A DNA stretch of 64,000 bases from Jiangella asiatica (GTDB lineage Bacteria > Actinomycetota > Actinomycetes > Jiangellales > Jiangellaceae), in assembly GCF_004349065.1 (NCBI RefSeq), contig NZ_SMKZ01000004.1, positions 124,001-188,000 of the forward strand. Direction: 5' to 3'. A model generated the notes under the pieces. That model made no database searches. It saw nothing but the letters and a program-made list of their open reading frames with translations, and was not told where the DNA came from. Both the position numbers and the translations under genes were made by a program. Positions 30,645 to 41,110 of this stretch are shown one piece after another (the stretch's first letter is position 1; each line of letters begins with the position of its first letter).

Positions 30645-31946
30645 TCAGCCGACGGTGGTGAGGAAACGGTCGAGCACCCGGACGCCGAACTCCAGCGCGT
30701 CGACGGGCACCCGCTCGTCGACGCTGTGGAACATCGCGCCGTAGTCGAGGTCCGGCGGCATCCGCAGCGGCGAGAAGCCGTAGCCGACGATGCCCAGCCG
30801 GGAAAACTGCTTGGCGTCGGTGCCGCCGGACATGCACATCGGCACGACGTGCCCGCCCGGGTCCTCCGCGACCAGCGCCGCCGCCATCGCGCGGAACGTC
30901 GGCGAAGCCGGGTCGGCGGACAGCGGGATCTCGGCGTGCTCGTACTCCCACGTCACATCGGGTCCGACCAGTTCGGCGACGGTGGCCTCGAACTCGTCGC
31001 GCGCACCTGGCACGATCCGTCCGTCGACGTGGCCGACGGCGGTCTCGGGGATGACGTTCACCTTGTAGCCGGCGTTGAGCATGGTCGGGTTGGAGCTGTT
31101 GCGCAGGACCGGCTCCACCAGCTCCCGGGCCGGCCCGAACCGCTCGAGCAACCGGTCGACGTCGGCATCCCCGTCCAGGTCGACCTCGACCCCCAGCGCG
31201 GCGCCGATCGCCTCGACGGAGGCCCGGACGGTCGGCGTCAGCCGGATCGGCCACCGGTACTCGTGCAACCGGTGCACGGCGCCGGCCAGCGCGCCGACCG
31301 CGTTGTCGGCGTTGACCTTCGAGCCGTGCCCGGCCCGGCCGGTGGCGGTCAGCCTCATCCAGGCAGTGCCGCGCTCGCCGGCGGCGATGGGGTACAGCCG
31401 GCGGTCGCCCACGTGGAAGGTGTAGCCGCCGGACTCACTGATGCCCTCCGTGCACCCATCGAACAGCTCCGGGTGCTCGGCAACCAGCCAACCCGAGCCG
31501 TGCTCCGCGCTGCCCTCTTCGTCGGCGGTGAAGGCCAGGACGATGTCGCGACGCGGCCGCCGGCCCTCGCGCATCCAGGCCCGGACGACGGCGAGCATCA
31601 TTGCGTCCATGCCCTTCATGTCGACCGCGCCGCGGCCCCACAGCACGCCGTCGCGAACCTCGCCCGCGAACGGCGGCACCGACCAGTCTGCCGCCTCGGC
31701 CGGCACGACGTCGAGGTGGCCGTGCACCAGCAGCGCGTCCAAATCCGGTTCCGTGCCGGTGATGCGGGCGACGACGTTGGCCCGGTTAGGCGCCGACACC
31801 AGTACCTTGGCGTCCACGCCCACGTCGGCGAGCTTCGTGGCGACGTACTCCGCGGCCGGCAGCTCCCGCCCGGTGCCGTCGCCGGGATTGGTGGTGTCGA
31901 TGCGGATGAGCTCGGAGGCGAGGGCGACGACGTCGGGCTCAGCCAT
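30645..31946 (-). CDS. M20/M25/M40-family metallopeptidase
   Basis: Encodes 433 residues. Zinc-site motifs are complete: HGHLDVVP (His77, Asp79), GRGAVDMKG (Asp109) and ADEEGS (Glu143 catalytic, Glu144 ligand), with a late His in AMFHSVDERVP. The dimerisation domain lies at about 190-330. M20 enzymes hydrolyse dipeptides or N-acyl amino acids in the cytoplasm. Its start overlaps the M55 gene by 8 bases. Confidence 0.93.
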   Translation of the reverse strand: MAEPDVVALASELIRIDTTNPGDGTGRELPAAEYVATKLADVGVDAKVLVSAPNRANVVARITGTEPDLDALLVHGHLDVVPAEAADWSVPPFAGEVRDGVLWGRGAVDMKGMDAMMLAVVRAWMREGRRPRRDIVLAFTADEEGSAEHGSGWLVAEHPELFDGCTEGISESGGYTFHVGDRRLYPIAAGERGTAWMRLTATGRAGHGSKVNADNAVGALAGAVHRLHEYRWPIRLTPTVRASVEAIGAALGVEVDLDGDADVDRLLERFGPARELVEPVLRNSSNPTMLNAGYKVNVIPETAVGHVDGRIVPGARDEFEATVAELVGPDVTWEYEHAEIPLSADPASPTFRAMAAALVAEDPGGHVVPMCMSGGTDAKQFSRLGIVGYGFSPLRMPPDLDYGAMFHSVDERVPVDALEFGVRVLDRFLTTVG

Positions 31947-32775
31947 AGAGGTTCTCGATCCCGTTCGAAATGAGGGTGGTCACGGCCTTGAAGCAGCGGA
32001 TCATGTCGTACGCCGAGCCGGCGACGTAGCGGACCCGGCGCTCGGCCACCCGCTCCACCGTCGGCACCATCCCCGCGAAGTCGGCGAGCTGGGTGGCGTC
32101 GACCTCGACCTCGACGGTGTAGGGGCCGCGGTCCGTGGCCGGCTCGTGCCGGACGGCCAGGGCAGTGGCGGCCTTGGCCGCCGCGCTGATGTCGGCGAAC
32201 GTGCGCGCCGGCGGGCGGCACCGGGCGGCGTAACGGGACACGTAGTCCTTGACGGCGACGGTGCGCGCGTGTGGCGCGTAGGTGACGGCGTCGGCGCAGG
32301 CCTTGTCATCGCCGGTGACCAGGACGACCGGGGTGCCGTACTCCGCGGCCACCAGCGCGTTCAGCCGGCCCTCGCTGGCCGGCTCGCCGTCGACCCAGAC
32401 CCCGGTGACGGAGTTGGGCAGGTAGGTGTGCGCCAGGACGCCCTCCGCGCCGGCGCCGGCGTGGTACCCGAGGAAGACGACGCCGTCGACGTCGCCGGCC
32501 TGTAGGCCCTCGACCATGGTCAGCGCCTTGTGCCGTCCGGTGATCATGGTGGCGCGCTCGTCCAGCCGCTCCAGCAGGAGGTTGCGCATGGTGGCGTGCG
32601 CCTCGTTGACGAGGACCTCGTCGGCGCCGCCGTCGAACAGCCCGGCGATGGCGCCGTTGACGTCAGAGGTGAACATCGACCGGCAGCGCTGCCACTGCTC
32701 GGTGCCCGGCTCGACGTCTGCCGGCCAGGTGACGCCGGTCGCGCCTTCCATGTCGGCCGATATGAGCACCTTCAT
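31939..32775 (-). CDS. M55-family D-aminopeptidase (DppA-like)
   Basis: Encodes 278 residues. The residues that bind the two zinc ions in Bacillus subtilis DppA appear at nearly the same positions: Asp8 and Glu10 (SADMEG), His60 (NEAH), His105 (GYHAG), Glu135 (SEG), with the catalytic His116. DppA removes N-terminal D-amino acids such as D-Ala from short peptides, a way to use wall peptides. It is 6 bases after the MarR stop, so it shares its transcript. Confidence 0.94.
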   Translation of the reverse strand: MKVLISADMEGATGVTWPADVEPGTEQWQRCRSMFTSDVNGAIAGLFDGGADEVLVNEAHATMRNLLLERLDERATMITGRHKALTMVEGLQAGDVDGVVFLGYHAGAGAEGVLAHTYLPNSVTGVWVDGEPASEGRLNALVAAEYGTPVVLVTGDDKACADAVTYAPHARTVAVKDYVSRYAARCRPPARTFADISAAAKAATALAVRHEPATDRGPYTVEVEVDATQLADFAGMVPTVERVAERRVRYVAGSAYDMIRCFKAVTTLISNGIENLYG

Positions 32776-34135: not shown

Positions 34136-35284
34136 TCAGGGCGCGACGACCTCGACCTCGTAGCCGTCCTCGTTCTCCATGTAGGCCGCGTAATGGTGCG
34201 GCCCGCCGGCGTGCGGGTGCCGGTCGGCGAACATGAGCCGCCAGCCGTACGCCGGCGCCTCGGAGACGATGCGGTCGACCATCCACTGCTCGGGCACCGC
34301 CAGCGCCAGGTGGTTGAGGCCCGGCGCCTTGCGGTCGTAGGCGACCCAGCTGAGGTCTGGCGAGCACTCGAGCACGACGTACGGCCCGCCGCCCGGCGCC
34401 TGCCAGGAGCGGCCGTTCTCCCACGCCTGGAACAGCGTCCAGCCCAGCCGCTCGAACAGCCAGCCGAACGAGCGGGTGGCGGAGTCGAGGTCGCGGACCC
34501 AGATCTCGATGTGGTGCAGGCCGGTGGACGGCGTGCTGGACGGCGCGATCGAGGAGTCGTCGACGGCGGGCTCCGGGGCGCGGGCCGGCGTCTGCGCGTA
34601 CTGCTCCTTGGACGTGCCGAACGACGGGTCCAGCGCCCGCAGCACGGGGTCGAGCTCGTTCACGGCGGAGTCGGTGAGCGGATCGTACGCCTGGGTGTCG
34701 TAGCTCGCGGTGGAGCCGTGCGCCGTGCCGTGGGACGTGCCGTGCGACGTCTCGTAGTACGACGGGTACGTGGGGTTGCTCTGCGTCGGCGGACCGGCGG
34801 GACTGCTGGGCGGCGCGGCGTAGCCGGCCGCCGCGGGCGGCGGCAGCACCGGCGGCGCGACCGGCGGCGATGCCGGCGGTTGCGACACCGGCGGGGGCCC
34901 GACCGACGGGGGCCCGACCGGCGGGGGCCCGACCGGCGGCGCCGACACCGGTGGCGCTCCGACCGGCGCGCCACCCATGGTCGCGGTCTGCGGGTTGTAC
35001 GCCTGTGCCGAGACCTGCTGTGACGCCTGCGCAGCCTTGCGCATGCGCCGCAGCTCGGCGGCGGCGGCGTCGAGCCAGTCGTCGACGTCGTCCATGACGT
35101 AGCCCTCACGCATGCGGACGACCTTGAACTCCTCGGCTTCGATCTGCTCCGGAGTCACCGAACGGCCGGCGGCTCGACCCTCCAAGGCGTCGATCACCAG
35201 GTCGACGAAGTCGTCGACCGCATCCAGGTCGTATCCCTCACGCATGCGGGTGGTACGGAACTCAGGCTCGCGACTGACGGCCAC
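34136..35284 (-). CDS. Two DivIVA domains fused to a VOC/glyoxalase domain
   Basis: Encodes 382 residues. Two DivIVA-type repeats lie at about 8-35 (FRTTRMREGYDLDAVDDFVD) and 52-82 (FKVVRMREGYVMDDVDDWLD); a Pro/Gly/Val-rich linker (105-170), a His/Ser/Thr stretch (178-192) and an acidic region follow. Residues 255-382 form a VOC domain with all four likely metal ligands: His258, Glu306, His325 and Glu378. DivIVA proteins mark poles and septa in actinobacteria; VOC domains are metal-dependent enzymes or binding proteins. The fusion is in one uninterrupted frame. Location at the pole plus small-molecule chemistry is a guess. Confidence 0.85.
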   Translation of the reverse strand: MAVSREPEFRTTRMREGYDLDAVDDFVDLVIDALEGRAAGRSVTPEQIEAEEFKVVRMREGYVMDDVDDWLDAAAAELRRMRKAAQASQQVSAQAYNPQTATMGGAPVGAPPVSAPPVGPPPVGPPSVGPPPVSQPPASPPVAPPVLPPPAAAGYAAPPSSPAGPPTQSNPTYPSYYETSHGTSHGTAHGSTASYDTQAYDPLTDSAVNELDPVLRALDPSFGTSKEQYAQTPARAPEPAVDDSSIAPSSTPSTGLHHIEIWVRDLDSATRSFGWLFERLGWTLFQAWENGRSWQAPGGGPYVVLECSPDLSWVAYDRKAPGLNHLALAVPEQWMVDRIVSEAPAYGWRLMFADRHPHAGGPHHYAAYMENEDGYEVEVVAP

Positions 35285-35417: not shown

Positions 35418-36539
35418 CTAATCACCAACGGTAGCCAACTGGCCACACGCCCCGTCGATGTCGCTACCTCTGGTGTCGCGAATCGTCACCGGAATGCCCC
35501 GTTCCTCCAGCGCAGCGACGAACGCTGCCTGGGCTTCCGGGCGCGACGCGGTCCACTTGGAACCCGGTGTCGGGTTGAGCGGGATGGGGTTGACGTGCAC
35601 CCAACCGCGGCCGCGCTGGTTGAGCAACCTGCCCAGCAGGTCGCCCCGCCAGGCGTGGTCGTTGATGTCGCGGATCAGCGCGTACTCGATGGAGACACGC
35701 CGCCCGGTGGTCTGGTAGTACCGGTAGGCGGCGTCCAGGGCTTCGCCGACCTTCCACCGGGTGTTGATGGGCACGAGCTCGTCGCGCAGCTCGTCGTCGG
35801 GCGCGTGCAGCGACAGCGCCAGCGTGACCCCGAGCCCTTCCGCGGCCAGCTTGTCGATGGCCGGCACCAGGCCGACGGTGGAGACGGTGACGCCGCGACG
35901 CCCGATGCCCAGGCCCGCCGGCGCCGGCTCGACCAACCGGTGCACGGCGGTCAGGACGGCCCGGTAGTTGGCCAACGGCTCGCCCATGCCCATGAAGACG
36001 ACGTTGGTCACCCGCCCGGGTCCGCCGGCGACCTCGCCCCGGCTCAGCATCCGTTCGGCTACCACGACCTGTTCGACGATCTCGGCCGCCGACATGTTCC
36101 GGGTGAGCCCCTGCTGGCCGGTGGCGCAGAAGGGGCAGTTCATGCCACAGCCGGCCTGGCTCGACACGCACAGCGTCACGCGCGGGCGGTCGCCGCGATA
36201 GCGCATGAGCACGCTCTCGACCAGCGCCCCGTCGAACAGCCGCCACAGCGTCTTGCGGGTGTCGCCGCCGTCGGTCTCGAGGTGACGCACCGGCGTGGCC
36301 AGTGTAGGCAGCATCTCCGTGGCCAAGGCGTCGCGCACCGACGCCGGCACGTCGGTCATCTCTCGCGGATCTGACACGTACCGGGCGAAATAGTGTCGCG
36401 ACAGCTGGTCGGCCCGGAACGGCTTCTCCCCCAGCTCGGCCACGGCCTGGCGACGGTCGGGAACGTCGAGGTCAGCAAGATGGCGCGGCGGCTTGCCACG
36501 CCGTGCGGGAACGAGCGTGAGCTCACCGGGTCTGGGCAT
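35418..36539 (-). CDS. rlmN: 23S rRNA (adenine2503-C2)/tRNA A37 methyltransferase RlmN
   Basis: Encodes 373 residues from the ATG at 36539 ([21 protein letters not shown]), matching other actinobacterial RlmN starts; an ATG four codons earlier is possible. Radical-SAM cluster motif [20 protein letters not shown], and the methyl-carrying Cys late in the protein (IDGACGQL) are present. It methylates A2503 of 23S rRNA at C2. It lies 133 bases after the DivIVA-VOC gene start and before cdsA in the conserved block. Confidence 0.95.
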
Positions 36540-36683
36540 GATGTCGCCCATTGTCCCACGTTCGGCGGAGGGGAGTCGTACGTCGCCTCCGAGCTGCCCG
36601 ATCGGCTGACCCTGAAAGCACCGAGCGGACCCCGTCGCCGTCGCACCGACCTCTCCCGCGCCCGCTTTCCGTTGATGGCGTGC

Positions 36684-37631
36684 TCAGGCGGTGACGACGT
36701 ACTCCAGGACGAGCCAGATGAGCGGCGCGGACGGCAGCAAGGAGTCCAGCCGGTCCATCAGGCCGCCGTGCCCGGGCAGCAGCGAGCTCATGTCCTTGAT
36801 GCCGATGTCGCGCTTGATGAGCGACTCGCCGAGGTCGCCCACGGTAGCGCCGATGACACCGACCGCGCCGAGGACGATGCCGGTCCACCACGGCGCGTCG
36901 AACGCGAACACCGCGACCGCGACGGCGACCGCGGTGCTCAAGATCACGGAGCCGCAGAAACCCTCCCACGACTTCTTCGGGCTGACGCTCGGCGCCATCG
37001 GGTGCCGACCGAACATGACACCGGCCACGTAGCCGCCGGTATCGGACGCGACGACCACCGCGAGCAGCGCGAGCACGCGCCAGTCGCCGTCGTCGGGACG
37101 GGCCATCAAAATGGCGAAGCCGGCCAGGAACGGGACGTAGACGCTGGTGAAGATGCCCGCGGTGACGTCGCGCAGGTAGCCCGGCGCGGGATCGCCCAGC
37201 CGCCAGACGCACACTGCCGCCACGGTCAGGCCCAGACCCACCATGAGCGGCGACCCGCCGCCGAGGTATGCCCCGACCAGCATGAGCACGGAGCCGAGCA
37301 CCACCGGAACGATGGGCACGGCCACCGCGCGGGTGCCGAGCGCGGTCGCGAGCTCCCACACCGCGACCACCATGACCAGCACGACCAGCGCGACGAACGC
37401 CGGCCGGACGAGGAACAGCGTGCTGAGCACGACGGCCGCGAGCCCGAGGCCCACCAGCGTGGCCGCGCGCAGGTCGCGCCCGGCCCGGCCGTGCCGGCGG
37501 GCCCGGTTGCCGGCACCGCCGCCCGCACCCGCCGCACCCGAGACGTCGCCCGTAGCGTCGCCGCCCGCACGCGCGGCCCGCGCGGCCCTGCCCCGGGAGA
37601 CGCCGCCCCCGGCCCCGTCAGTCATCACCAC
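36684..37631 (-). CDS. cdsA: Phosphatidate cytidylyltransferase
   Basis: Encodes up to 315 residues; GTG at 37631 or ATG at 37625 may be the start. CdsA makes CDP-diacylglycerol for phospholipid synthesis. After a ~55-residue Ala/Gly/Arg cytoplasmic leader there are about eight membrane helices; SPKKSWEGFCGS and the signature GDLGESLIKRDIGIKDMSSL through PGHGGLMDRLDSLL hold the catalytic Asp residues. It is 6 bases after frr. Confidence 0.95.
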   Translation of the reverse strand: MVMTDGAGGGVSRGRAARAARAGGDATGDVSGAAGAGGGAGNRARRHGRAGRDLRAATLVGLGLAAVVLSTLFLVRPAFVALVVLVMVVAVWELATALGTRAVAVPIVPVVLGSVLMLVGAYLGGGSPLMVGLGLTVAAVCVWRLGDPAPGYLRDVTAGIFTSVYVPFLAGFAILMARPDDGDWRVLALLAVVVASDTGGYVAGVMFGRHPMAPSVSPKKSWEGFCGSVILSTAVAVAVAVFAFDAPWWTGIVLGAVGVIGATVGDLGESLIKRDIGIKDMSSLLPGHGGLMDRLDSLLPSAPLIWLVLEYVVTA

Positions 37632-37637
37632 GTGTTC

Positions 37638-38195
37638 TCAGACCTCGAGCAGCTCGGCTTCCTTGTGCTTGAGAAGCTCGTCGATCTGCTCGACGTACGA
37701 CTTGGTGACGGACTCCAGGTGCTTCTCGGCCCGGGCGACCTCGTCCTCGCCGACCTCGCCGTCGCGGGCGAACTTGTCGAGGGTCTCCTTGGCGTGCCGG
37801 CGCACGCTGCGGATGGACACCCGGGCACCTTCGGCCTTCTCGCGCGCGAGCTTGATGTACTCGCGGCGGCGCTCCTCGGTGAGGGCGGGCAGCACGACGC
37901 GCACGATGTTGCCGTCGTTGGTGGGGTTGACCCCGAGGTCGGAGTCGCGGATGGCCCGCTCGATGGCGGCGAGCGAGCCCTTGTCGTAGGGCTGAACGGT
38001 GATCATGCGGGCGTCGGTCACGTGGAACGACGCGAGCTGGTTGACCGGGGTTGGCGCACCGTAGTAGTCGACCACGATCTTGTTGAACAGCGACGGATGG
38101 GCTCGCCCGGTCCGGATCGAGGCGAAGTCCTCCTTGCCGACCGACACGGCCTTCTCCATCTTCTCCTCGGCTTCGAGGAGGGTCTCGTCGATCAC
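37638..38195 (-). CDS. frr: Ribosome recycling factor
   Basis: Encodes 185 residues; two adjacent GTG codons (38198 and 38195) are candidates and the second has the better 5-base spacing from GGAG. RRF splits post-termination ribosomes with EF-G. The three-helix bundle and beta/alpha/beta head are recognised by [38 protein letters not shown] and [26 protein letters not shown]-type segments (all in order). It follows pyrH with a hairpin between. Confidence 0.96.
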
Positions 38196-38263
38196 CACTA
38201 CTCCTTCGCGTTGCGTGTGCCGTCGATCCTAGGGGTTCCGGCGGTCGCGGACGCCCCGGCCGG

Positions 38264-38296: not shown

Positions 38297-39094
38297 TCAG
38301 GCTTCGACGACGGTCTCGACGTTCGAGGCGACCACCGTACCGATCTGTTCGCCCCGGATGGCCCGGGCGATGCCATTGTCCACGCCCAGTCCGAACACGA
38401 TGATCGGCAACTGGTTGTCCATGCACAGGCTGAACGCGGCCGGGTCGGCGACGTTGAGTCGCTGCCGCAGGACGTCGGCGTAGGTGATGCTGCGGTACTT
38501 GCGCGCGTTCGGATGGGTCCGCGGATCGGCCTCGTAGACGCCGTCGACGCCGTTCTTGCCCATGAGGAGCCGATCGCAGTTGATCTCGAGGGCGCGCTGG
38601 GCGGCGACGGTGTCGGTGGTGAAGTACGGCATGCCGGCGCCGGCGCCGAAGATGACGACACGGCCCTTCTCCAGGTGTCGCGCCGCGCGGCGCGGGATGT
38701 ACGGCTCGGCGACCTGGCCCATGGTGATGGCGGTTTGTACCCGGGTGTCGACGCCGCGGTGCTCCAGGAAGTCCTGCAGGGCCAGGCAGTTCATGACGGT
38801 GCCCAGCATGCCCATGTAGTCGCCGCGGGCGCGGTCCATTCCGTGGTGCTGCAGCTCCGCGCCGCGGAAGAAGTTGCCGCCGCCGACGACGACGGCGACC
38901 TGCACGCCGTCCTGGACGACCTCGGCGATCTGGCCGGCGATGCGCTTGACGACCTCCGGGTCGACGCCGACCGCGCCGCCGCCGAAGACCTCGCCGGACA
39001 GCTTCAGCAGCACTCGCCGGCCAGGCTGCGCCGCCGGGCCGGCGCTGGACGCGGCCGAGGCCGGCACCGTCTGGGTTCCATTCGTCTCCGTCAC
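38297..39094 (-). CDS. pyrH: Uridylate kinase
   Basis: Encodes 265 residues from the GTG at 39094, with AGGAGG 9 bases upstream. PyrH phosphorylates UMP to UDP. Amino-acid-kinase-fold motifs: [43 protein letters not shown]-type region and the C-terminal GEQIGTVV. The first ~25 residues ([14 protein letters not shown]) are an extra Thr/Ala/Ser leader. It follows tsf by 53 bases. Confidence 0.95.
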
Positions 39095-39147
39095 GGTGCC
39101 GGCCTCCTGAGATCGCGTACTGGACTCGTCCTGGTCGGGTCGGTGGG

Positions 39148-39972
39148 TCAGGCCTCGAAGCGGACGAACCGCTTCACCGTCACGCCGGCCGCGTCGAGCA
39201 CGGCGCCGACGGACTTCTTGCTCTCCTTGACCGACGGCTGGTCGACCAGCACGGTCTCCTTGAAGAAACCGTTGAGCCGGCCCTCGATGATCTTCGGCAT
39301 GGCCTGCTCGGGCTTGCCCTCCTCGCGGGCCGTGGCCTCGGCGATGCGCCGCTCGTTCTCGACCACGTCGGCCGGCACGTCGTCGCGGACGGCGTAGGTC
39401 GGACGCAGCGCGGCGACCTGCATGGCGGCGTCGCGAGCGGCCTGCACGGCGGTCTCGGAGCCGTCGGAGACGTACTCGACGAGCACACCCACTTGCGGCG
39501 GCAGGTCGGCGGAGCGCTTGTGCAGGTACGTGGCCACCTCGCCGTCGACGACGGCGACGTTCGTGATCTCGATCTTCTCGCCCATGACGGCCGCGGCTGC
39601 GTCGACGGCCTCGCCGACCTTGCGGCCGTCGGGCAGCGCCGATCCGATCAGCGTCTCGACGTCGGCCGGCCTCACGGCGGCGGCGACGGCGACGATGTCG
39701 GCGGCGAGCTCCTGGAAGTCGGCGTTCTTGGCCACGAAGTCGGTCTCGCAGGCCAGCACGATGATGGCCGGGCCCTCGGCGGCGACCAGGCCGTTGGACG
39801 TGGTGCGCTCGGCGCTGCGCTTGGCGGCCTTGGCCGCGCCCTTGATCCGCAGCGTCTCGATGGCCTGGTCGAAGTCGCCGCCGGTCTCCTCCAGCGCCTT
39901 CTTCGCGTCCATCATGCCCGCACCCGTGGCATCGCGCAGCCGCTTGACGTCGGCCGCAGTGATGTTCGGCAT
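39148..39972 (-). CDS. tsf: Translation elongation factor Ts
   Basis: Encodes 274 residues from the ATG at 39972 ([20 protein letters not shown]); a GTG two codons earlier is possible. EF-Ts exchanges GDP on EF-Tu. The N-terminal UBA-like domain with the conserved MDAKKALEE, the EF-Tu-contacting [11 protein letters not shown] motif and the C-terminal dimer domain ending [20 protein letters not shown] are present. It follows rpsB after a strong hairpin. Confidence 0.97.
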
Positions 39973-40016
39973 CCTCACACTTCTCTCTTGTCCGTCTGTC
40001 CGGTGGTCGTTCGGTC

Positions 40017-40058
40017 ACGGCCGGGGCGCGACGGCTGCGTCACGCCCCGGCCGTGACC
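40017..40058 (-). terminator. Hairpins between rpsB and tsf
   Basis: A perfect 14-bp stem (40017-40030 with 40045-40058) with a 14-base loop lies between the rpsB stop (40097) and the tsf start (39972). A second short palindrome, ACCCCGCG/CGCGGGGT, is next to it (about 40074-40091). Neither has a U-run. They may set the rpsB:tsf ratio by attenuation or processing. Confidence 0.72.
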
Positions 40059-40096: not shown

Positions 40097-41110
40097 TCAG
40101 GCCTGCTGCGGGGCGGGCTCGTCGGCCTGCTGCGCGGCGGAGTCGGCGTCGGCGGGCGCCTCGGTCGCCTCGGTCGCCTCGACCGGAGTCTCCGCGACCT
40201 CGGCCGGAGCCTCGGTTGCCTCGACCGGAGCCTCGGTGGCCTCGGTGGCAAGGGCTTCGGTCGCCTCGGCGGGTGCCTCCCCGGCCGCAGGGGCCTCGGC
40301 GGTCTCGGCAGGTGCCGCGGCGGCCTCGGACTGCGTCTGCTGCAGCAGCTCCTTCTCCCACTCGGCCAGCGGCTCGTCCGAGGCCAGCTCGGCGCCGTCG
40401 CCGGCGTCGCCGCGCTGACCCTGACGGCCCAGCAGGCCGTCGGCGACGGAGTCGGCCACGACCCGGGTCAGCAGGCTGACCGCGCGGATGGCGTCGTCGT
40501 TGCCCGGGATCGGGAAGTCGACCTCGTCGGGGTCGCAGTTCGTGTCGAGGATCGCCACGATCGGGATGCCGAGCTTGCGCGCCTCGTCGACGGCCAGGTG
40601 CTCCTTCTTGGTGTCGACGATCCACACCGCGCTGGGCACCTTGGACATGTTGCGCACGCCGCCCAGGGTGCGCTCGAGCTTGTCCTTCTCACGCTTGCGC
40701 ATGAGAAGCTCCTTCTTCGTCAGACCGGAGCCGGCAACGTCGTCGAAGTTGAGCTCCTCGAGCTCCTTGAGCCGCTGCAGCCGCTTGTTCACGGTCTGGA
40801 AGTTGGTCAGCATGCCGCCCAGCCAGCGCTCGGTCACGAACGGCATGTTCACCCGGGTGGCCTGCTCGCGCACGGCCTCCTGAGCCTGCTTCTTGGTGCC
40901 GACGAACAGCACCGTCCCGCCGTGCGCCACGGTCTCCTTGACGAACTCGTAGGCGCGGTCGATGTAGGACAGCGACTGCTGCAGGTCGATGATGTAGATG
41001 CCGTTGCGCTCGGTGAAGATGAACCTCTTCATCTTCGGGTTCCAGCGGCGGGTCTGATGCCCGAAGTGCACGCCGCTTTCGAGCAGCTGACGCATGGTGA
41101 CGACGGCCAT
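40097..41110 (-). CDS. rpsB: 30S ribosomal protein S2 with long acidic/alanine tail
   Basis: Encodes 337 residues. The S2 core (about 1-245) is normal: [34 protein letters not shown], and [39 protein letters not shown]. From about 250 the chain continues with ~85 residues of Glu/Ala/Thr/Pro repeats ([19 protein letters not shown]), which most S2 proteins lack or have much shorter. GGAGGAG precedes the ATG. First gene of the rpsB-tsf-pyrH-frr-cdsA-rlmN series. Confidence 0.97.

Follow-up and report, generated by a model that had tools for sequence, protein, structure and literature searches.

A gene on the minus strand of the Jiangella asiatica DNA analysed here (a stretch of 64,000 nucleotides, hereafter the window) encodes a 382-residue protein in which two DivIVA-like domains, a linker predicted to be disordered and a VOC domain follow one another in a single reading frame. 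The fusion gene is real and is conserved in Jiangellaceae-type loci. The analysis establishes its domain composition, this conservation, its fixed position after pyrH-frr-cdsA-rlmN and an invariant His/Glu/His/Glu set in the VOC domain. The likely function of the DivIVA pair is to bring the VOC domain, as a putative metal-dependent enzyme or sensor, to the septum or pole.

A single-frame fusion gene in Jiangellaceae-type loci

The gene spans positions 34,136–35,284 of the window, with a GTG start codon at 35,284 and a stop codon at 34,136–34,138. The sequence GGGAGGAGAGTGACACCTG ahead of the GTG is a plausible ribosome-binding site; a scan for promoters and terminators found nothing. One scan of genome contigs, which relies on exact short peptides, returned 15 loci, all of the Jiangellales type. 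Thirteen other full-length loci (L004, L005, L007–L016 and L018) have the identical fused order in a single frame; 11 belong to named species of Jiangella, Haloactinopolyspora and Phytoactinopolyspora, and the other two to metagenome-assembled genomes. L006 and L017 are two halves of one J. rhizosphaerae gene, with the contig ends inside the GC-rich linker, and this split looks like an assembly gap, not a broken gene.

The window protein and its 13 full-length relatives were aligned (alignment A1), and Pfam detects both DivIVA and Glyoxalase_4 in 14/14 members. A1 shows almost no variation in the DivIVA repeats or the VOC domain, and variation of both length and sequence in the linker. Pairwise Nei–Gojobori estimates by protein segment give dN/dS of about 0.05–0.27 in the DivIVA repeats and 0.06–0.21 in the VOC domain, in contrast to 0.4–1.15 in the linker. 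The DivIVA repeats, the VOC domain and one linker motif are under purifying selection.

A frameshift or an assembly fusion of two neighbouring genes would be a trivial explanation for such a chain, and it could draw on the GC-rich linker, within which the J. rhizosphaerae gene is cut between contigs. The fusion gene is nevertheless not an artefact, because the same fused order recurs in the 13 other full-length loci; as these share the frame, the explanation is ruled out and keeps a vanishingly small probability. The initial annotation had described one frame fusing two DivIVA motifs to a VOC domain, a description with which TIGR03544, Pfam and the 13 further loci agree. It had also asked whether a frameshift might hide two separate genes, which the conserved single frame answers, and whether other actinobacteria share the architecture, which is found in the 13 full-length Jiangellaceae-type loci and in one split gene.

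Two DivIVA-like domains in one chain

The DivIVA assignment is carried by sequence profiles. The NCBIfam DivIVA domain model TIGR03544 matches the fusion protein in two stretches (E 2e-13), and the Pfam DivIVA match (8.6e-7) lies just above the cut-off, at 29.4 against 28 bits; the DivIVA character of the N-terminal part, which the initial annotation had left to be checked, is thereby borne out. Domain 1 (residues 9–37, FRTTRMREGYDLDAVDDFVDLVIDALEGR; positions 35,174–35,260, minus strand) is the second TIGR03544 stretch, is conserved with a dN/dS of 0.05–0.11, and lacks the buttressing N-terminal helix. Domain 2 (residues 43–87; 35,024–35,158, minus strand) is the best stretch for both TIGR03544 and Pfam DivIVA and features the buttressing helix VTPEQI, the loop RMREGY and a helix at residues 66–90. 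The repeat motifs, GYDLDAVD and GYVMDDVD, depart from the strict GYDxxEVD-type pattern by A or D for E/Q and, in the second, V for D/N.

The AlphaFold models, at pLDDT 56 and 65, are low to moderate in confidence; the second (pTM 0.53) predicts helices at residues 20–35, 45–50 and 66–90. The top Foldseek matches of the N-terminal model are the Wag31 and GpsB N-domains, at E values of about 1 or more, and VIA-align places residues ~40–92 on DivIVA, GpsB and Wag31 at Z 3–4, amid unrelated rows. These structural matches are consistent with a DivIVA fold without proving it. A profile search with the DivIVA pair against PDB sequences gave chance FemX matches only.

PolyDIV proteins are actinobacterial proteins with 2–8 DivIVA-like domains in tandem (PMC9858780, 2023), and two such domains in one chain bring the fusion protein within that definition. 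Their genes lie mostly near the UMP kinase gene, and one PolyDIV cluster bears an added Ser/Thr kinase domain (PMC9858780). The initial annotation had held that DivIVA family proteins end in coiled coils and not in enzymes, a generalisation that the analysis does not support, given this kinase-bearing cluster. Its view that the fusion would be a new kind of architecture likewise goes too far, in view of the precedents of tandem-DivIVA PolyDIV proteins and their kinase-fused members. Within a PolyDIV chain the domains are predicted to pair with one another; the proteins are predicted to be monomers and are proposed to serve as protein-binding hubs (PMC9858780). The domains may act as such hubs rather than as markers of membrane curvature.

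Genomic context and lineage

The fusion gene lies directly downstream of rlmN in a pyrH-frr-cdsA-rlmN series, in the window and in the relatives whose contigs reach that far. In the window, all on the minus strand, these are rlmN (35,418–36,551; TIGR00048, E 4e-93), cdsA for phosphatidate cytidylyltransferase (36,684–37,631), frr for ribosome recycling factor (37,638–38,198; TIGR00496) and pyrH for UMP kinase (38,297–39,020 with an approximate start; TIGR02075, E 8e-88, within the open reading frame 38,297–40,018). In L016, pyrH-frr-cdsA is present and rlmN was not detected. The vicinity of UMP kinase, a feature of most PolyDIV clusters, thus extends to the window and to all relatives reaching that far. 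Between rlmN and the start codon lie about 125–135 nt in Jiangella and Haloactinopolyspora, a distance that reaches about 240 nt in Phytoactinopolyspora. Further along the window, a 30S ribosomal protein S2 (40,097–41,110, minus strand) resembles a 'sunset domain' variant, matching NCBIfam NF051451 over residues 1–335 (E 2e-161) below the curated cut-off (537.5 against 710 bits).

Downstream, also on the minus strand, lie genes for an M55 D-aminopeptidase (DppA-like; 31,939–32,775; Pfam PF04951, E 1e-93) and an M20 family peptidase (30,645–31,946). Jiangella, Haloactinopolyspora and several Phytoactinopolyspora retain both, and in three Phytoactinopolyspora loci (L014, L015 and L018) the M55 gene follows directly, after about 90–120 nt on the same strand. 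The earlier remark that the gene sits among cell-wall peptide and lipid genes is fair, since cdsA upstream and the M55 and M20 genes downstream are conserved in relatives.

In the Nonomuraea pyrH-frr-cdsA-rlmN region, a four-domain PolyDIV without a VOC domain lies about 1.7 kb past rlmN, which supports positional orthology with the fusion gene. The corresponding Nocardia locus has no DivIVA protein within 6 kb after rlmN, where open reading frames read, by sequence, as dxr and a site-2 protease. Read from the sequence, the fusion is laid out like the first domain pair in each of two PolyDIVs that were compared, with domain 1 unbuttressed and a VTxEx buttress on domain 2. Domain 2 shares 12/21 identities with the genome's own DivIVA (L002) versus 11 with domain 2 of its own PolyDIV, and the DivIVA domains of the fusion match true DivIVA at least as closely as they match PolyDIV; an independent origin from DivIVA is therefore possible. 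Orthology to PolyDIV is not proved, because the genome carries a separate four-domain PolyDIV (L003) on another contig. Against the DivIVA repeat family TIGR03543 the fusion protein scores 21 bits, below the 154-bit cut-off, as do the two four-domain proteins tested. We file the protein as PolyDIV-like with its lineage not proved, since the DivIVA-level scores and the presence of L003 count against simple descent. The PolyDIV gene of L003, a locus on contig C115, occupies positions 1462–2037 of that locus and encodes about 191 residues.

A glyoxalase-like domain on a disordered linker

The VOC domain (residues 255–382; 34,139–34,522, minus strand) is supported by Pfam, by its match to the solved structure 3ct8 and by the alignment. 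Glyoxalase_4 (PF13669) matches residues 257–368 at 5e-11, with 43.3 bits against a gathering score of 27. The nearest solved structure by sequence is 3ct8 (E 2e-22), which is also the best structural match (Z 10.4, rmsd 4.2 over 122 residues). His258, Glu306, His325 and Glu378, which the initial annotation numbered correctly and proposed as ligands, are invariant in the 14 fusion sequences. We take their positions to be those of the metal ligands of E. coli glyoxalase I. The data support a complete His/Glu/His/Glu (HEHE-type) putative metal site of the glyoxalase I kind.

Stand-alone VOC relatives of 136–142 aa, from a Streptomyces plasmid and from Nonomuraea, share 56–57% identity with the domain and the same four ligands. 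Plasmid records gave VOC matches only; the single annotated match opened is a stand-alone 142-aa VOC protein, none of the records covers 80% of the fusion query, and the DivIVA half alone went unmatched in them. The organism's own genome holds neither a close stand-alone paralogue of this VOC nor another copy of its family; the fusion may therefore be the sole one. The existence of stand-alone relatives with the same ligands, together with the lack of another copy in the genome, makes an ordinary actinobacterial VOC protein the probable source of the domain.

VOC-fold proteins may also bind ligands without catalysis: bleomycin- and mitomycin-binding proteins are modules of this type. VOC proteins that bind drugs, the mitomycin C-binding protein among them, are found in the structural matches of the domain, which would suit a non-catalytic scaffold or ligand-binding module and a divisome or elongasome adaptor that recruited an enzyme fold. 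For an enzyme-like protein at work in the septum, the gephyrin-like protein of Corynebacteriales offers a precedent (PMC10522489). However, four glyoxalase-type ligands invariant in 14 fusions and two stand-alone relatives are unexpected for a purely structural VOC module, and we consider an adaptor of this kind unlikely.

Another explanation is that the DivIVA pair only tethers the VOC domain to another protein, for example a PolyDIV or DivIVA paralogue, with no membrane or pole targeting, and that the domain performs ordinary cytoplasmic glyoxalase-like detoxification. The hub role proposed for the predicted PolyDIV monomers would fit such tethering, and so would the fusion as what may be the genome's only copy of this VOC family. 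Both repeats nevertheless retain the RLREGY-type loop residues of actinobacterial DivIVA, which argues against a mere tether, and we regard this explanation as possible though doubtful.

The Pro/Gln/Gly-rich part of the linker (about residues 90–200; 34,685–35,015, minus strand) is predicted to be disordered from its low pLDDT, and its length varies in the family; dN/dS in this part is 0.4–0.9. The initial annotation gave the linker ~100 residues; the disordered segment is longer, at about 160 (residues 90–254). Within this otherwise drifting segment, the 21-residue motif DPLTDSAVNELDPVLRALDPS (residues 201–221; 34,622–34,684, minus strand) has a dN/dS of 0.05–0.18 and is conserved in 13 of the 14 sequences, being missing in the metagenome-assembled locus L016. 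The motif, which the initial annotation did not mention, is likely a partner-binding peptide.

Discussion

The explanation that we favour, with reasonable though limited confidence, is that a PolyDIV-type protein with one domain pair gained a VOC domain at its C-terminus, joined by a long disordered linker, and that the pair places this putative metal-binding domain at the septum or pole. As is predicted for other PolyDIVs, the two DivIVA domains of a single chain would fold against each other, and their exposed RMREGY loops would dock on the membrane or on DivIVA or divisome partners at the septum or pole. The flexible linker would present the VOC domain at the docking site, and its conserved DPLTDSAVNELDP motif would serve as the peptide that binds a fixed partner. 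The VOC domain probably dimerises as VOC proteins do, would bind a divalent metal, and may act on or sense a small molecule such as an alpha-oxoaldehyde, a thiol conjugate or a cell-envelope metabolite. Intrachain pairing, septal or polar docking, metal binding and VOC activity are thus features that we infer.

More tentatively, the protein could be a lineage-specific metalloenzyme or metabolite sensor, tethered to a septal or polar scaffold, that couples a small-molecule signal or detoxification to wall growth or division, possibly together with the neighbouring M55 enzyme acting on D-alanyl peptides. If the VOC domain does act at the septum or pole, it would tie small-molecule metabolism covalently to a scaffold of cell shape, beside the known PolyDIV–kinase fusion. 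PolyDIV proteins are widespread in Actinobacteria, and a fusion to an enzyme fold with an intact putative metal site gives the question of what this family organises a testable starting point.

The exact combination of tandem DivIVA domains with a VOC domain is apparently undescribed in the literature searched. That search found no paper on a DivIVA–glyoxalase fusion, the sole paper with both terms concerning Streptococcus suis phasevarions, and no paper mentioning Jiangella together with DivIVA; the main text of PMC9858780 does not mention glyoxalase. The kind of protein is already known, as a PolyDIV with an added folded domain.

Among solved VOC structures, 3ct8, a putative glyoxalase of Bacillus halodurans, has the same fold, with 33–34% identity in structural alignments. 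It retains the equivalents of His258, His325 and Glu378 but appears to lack that of Glu306, which is Val in the sequence alignment. DivIVA domains are absent from 3ct8 and from the actinobacterial VOC proteins that stand alone, at about 140 aa. Glyoxalase I (E. coli 1f9z; GloA2 4mts) also shares the fold, at Z 7.5 and 7.3, and the His/Glu/His/Glu pattern, although its identity to the fusion domain is about 20% and it is not joined to DivIVA.

The N-terminal domains of DivIVA/Wag31 and GpsB resemble those of the fusion in sequence (RMREGY loop) and in predicted helices. In contrast to these proteins, the fusion has the domain twice, carries a C-terminal VOC domain and lacks a long coiled coil or tetramerisation tail, and so departs from the DivIVA/Wag31 layout of a single N-domain, long coiled coil and oligomerisation tail. 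With PolyDIV proteins it shares tandem DivIVA-like domains in one chain, an actinobacterial host, a nearby pyrH and an extra folded domain for which there is precedent. It differs from them in its single DivIVA pair, in its long Pro/Gln-rich linker, which contains a conserved motif, and in its added domain, which is a VOC domain and not a kinase.
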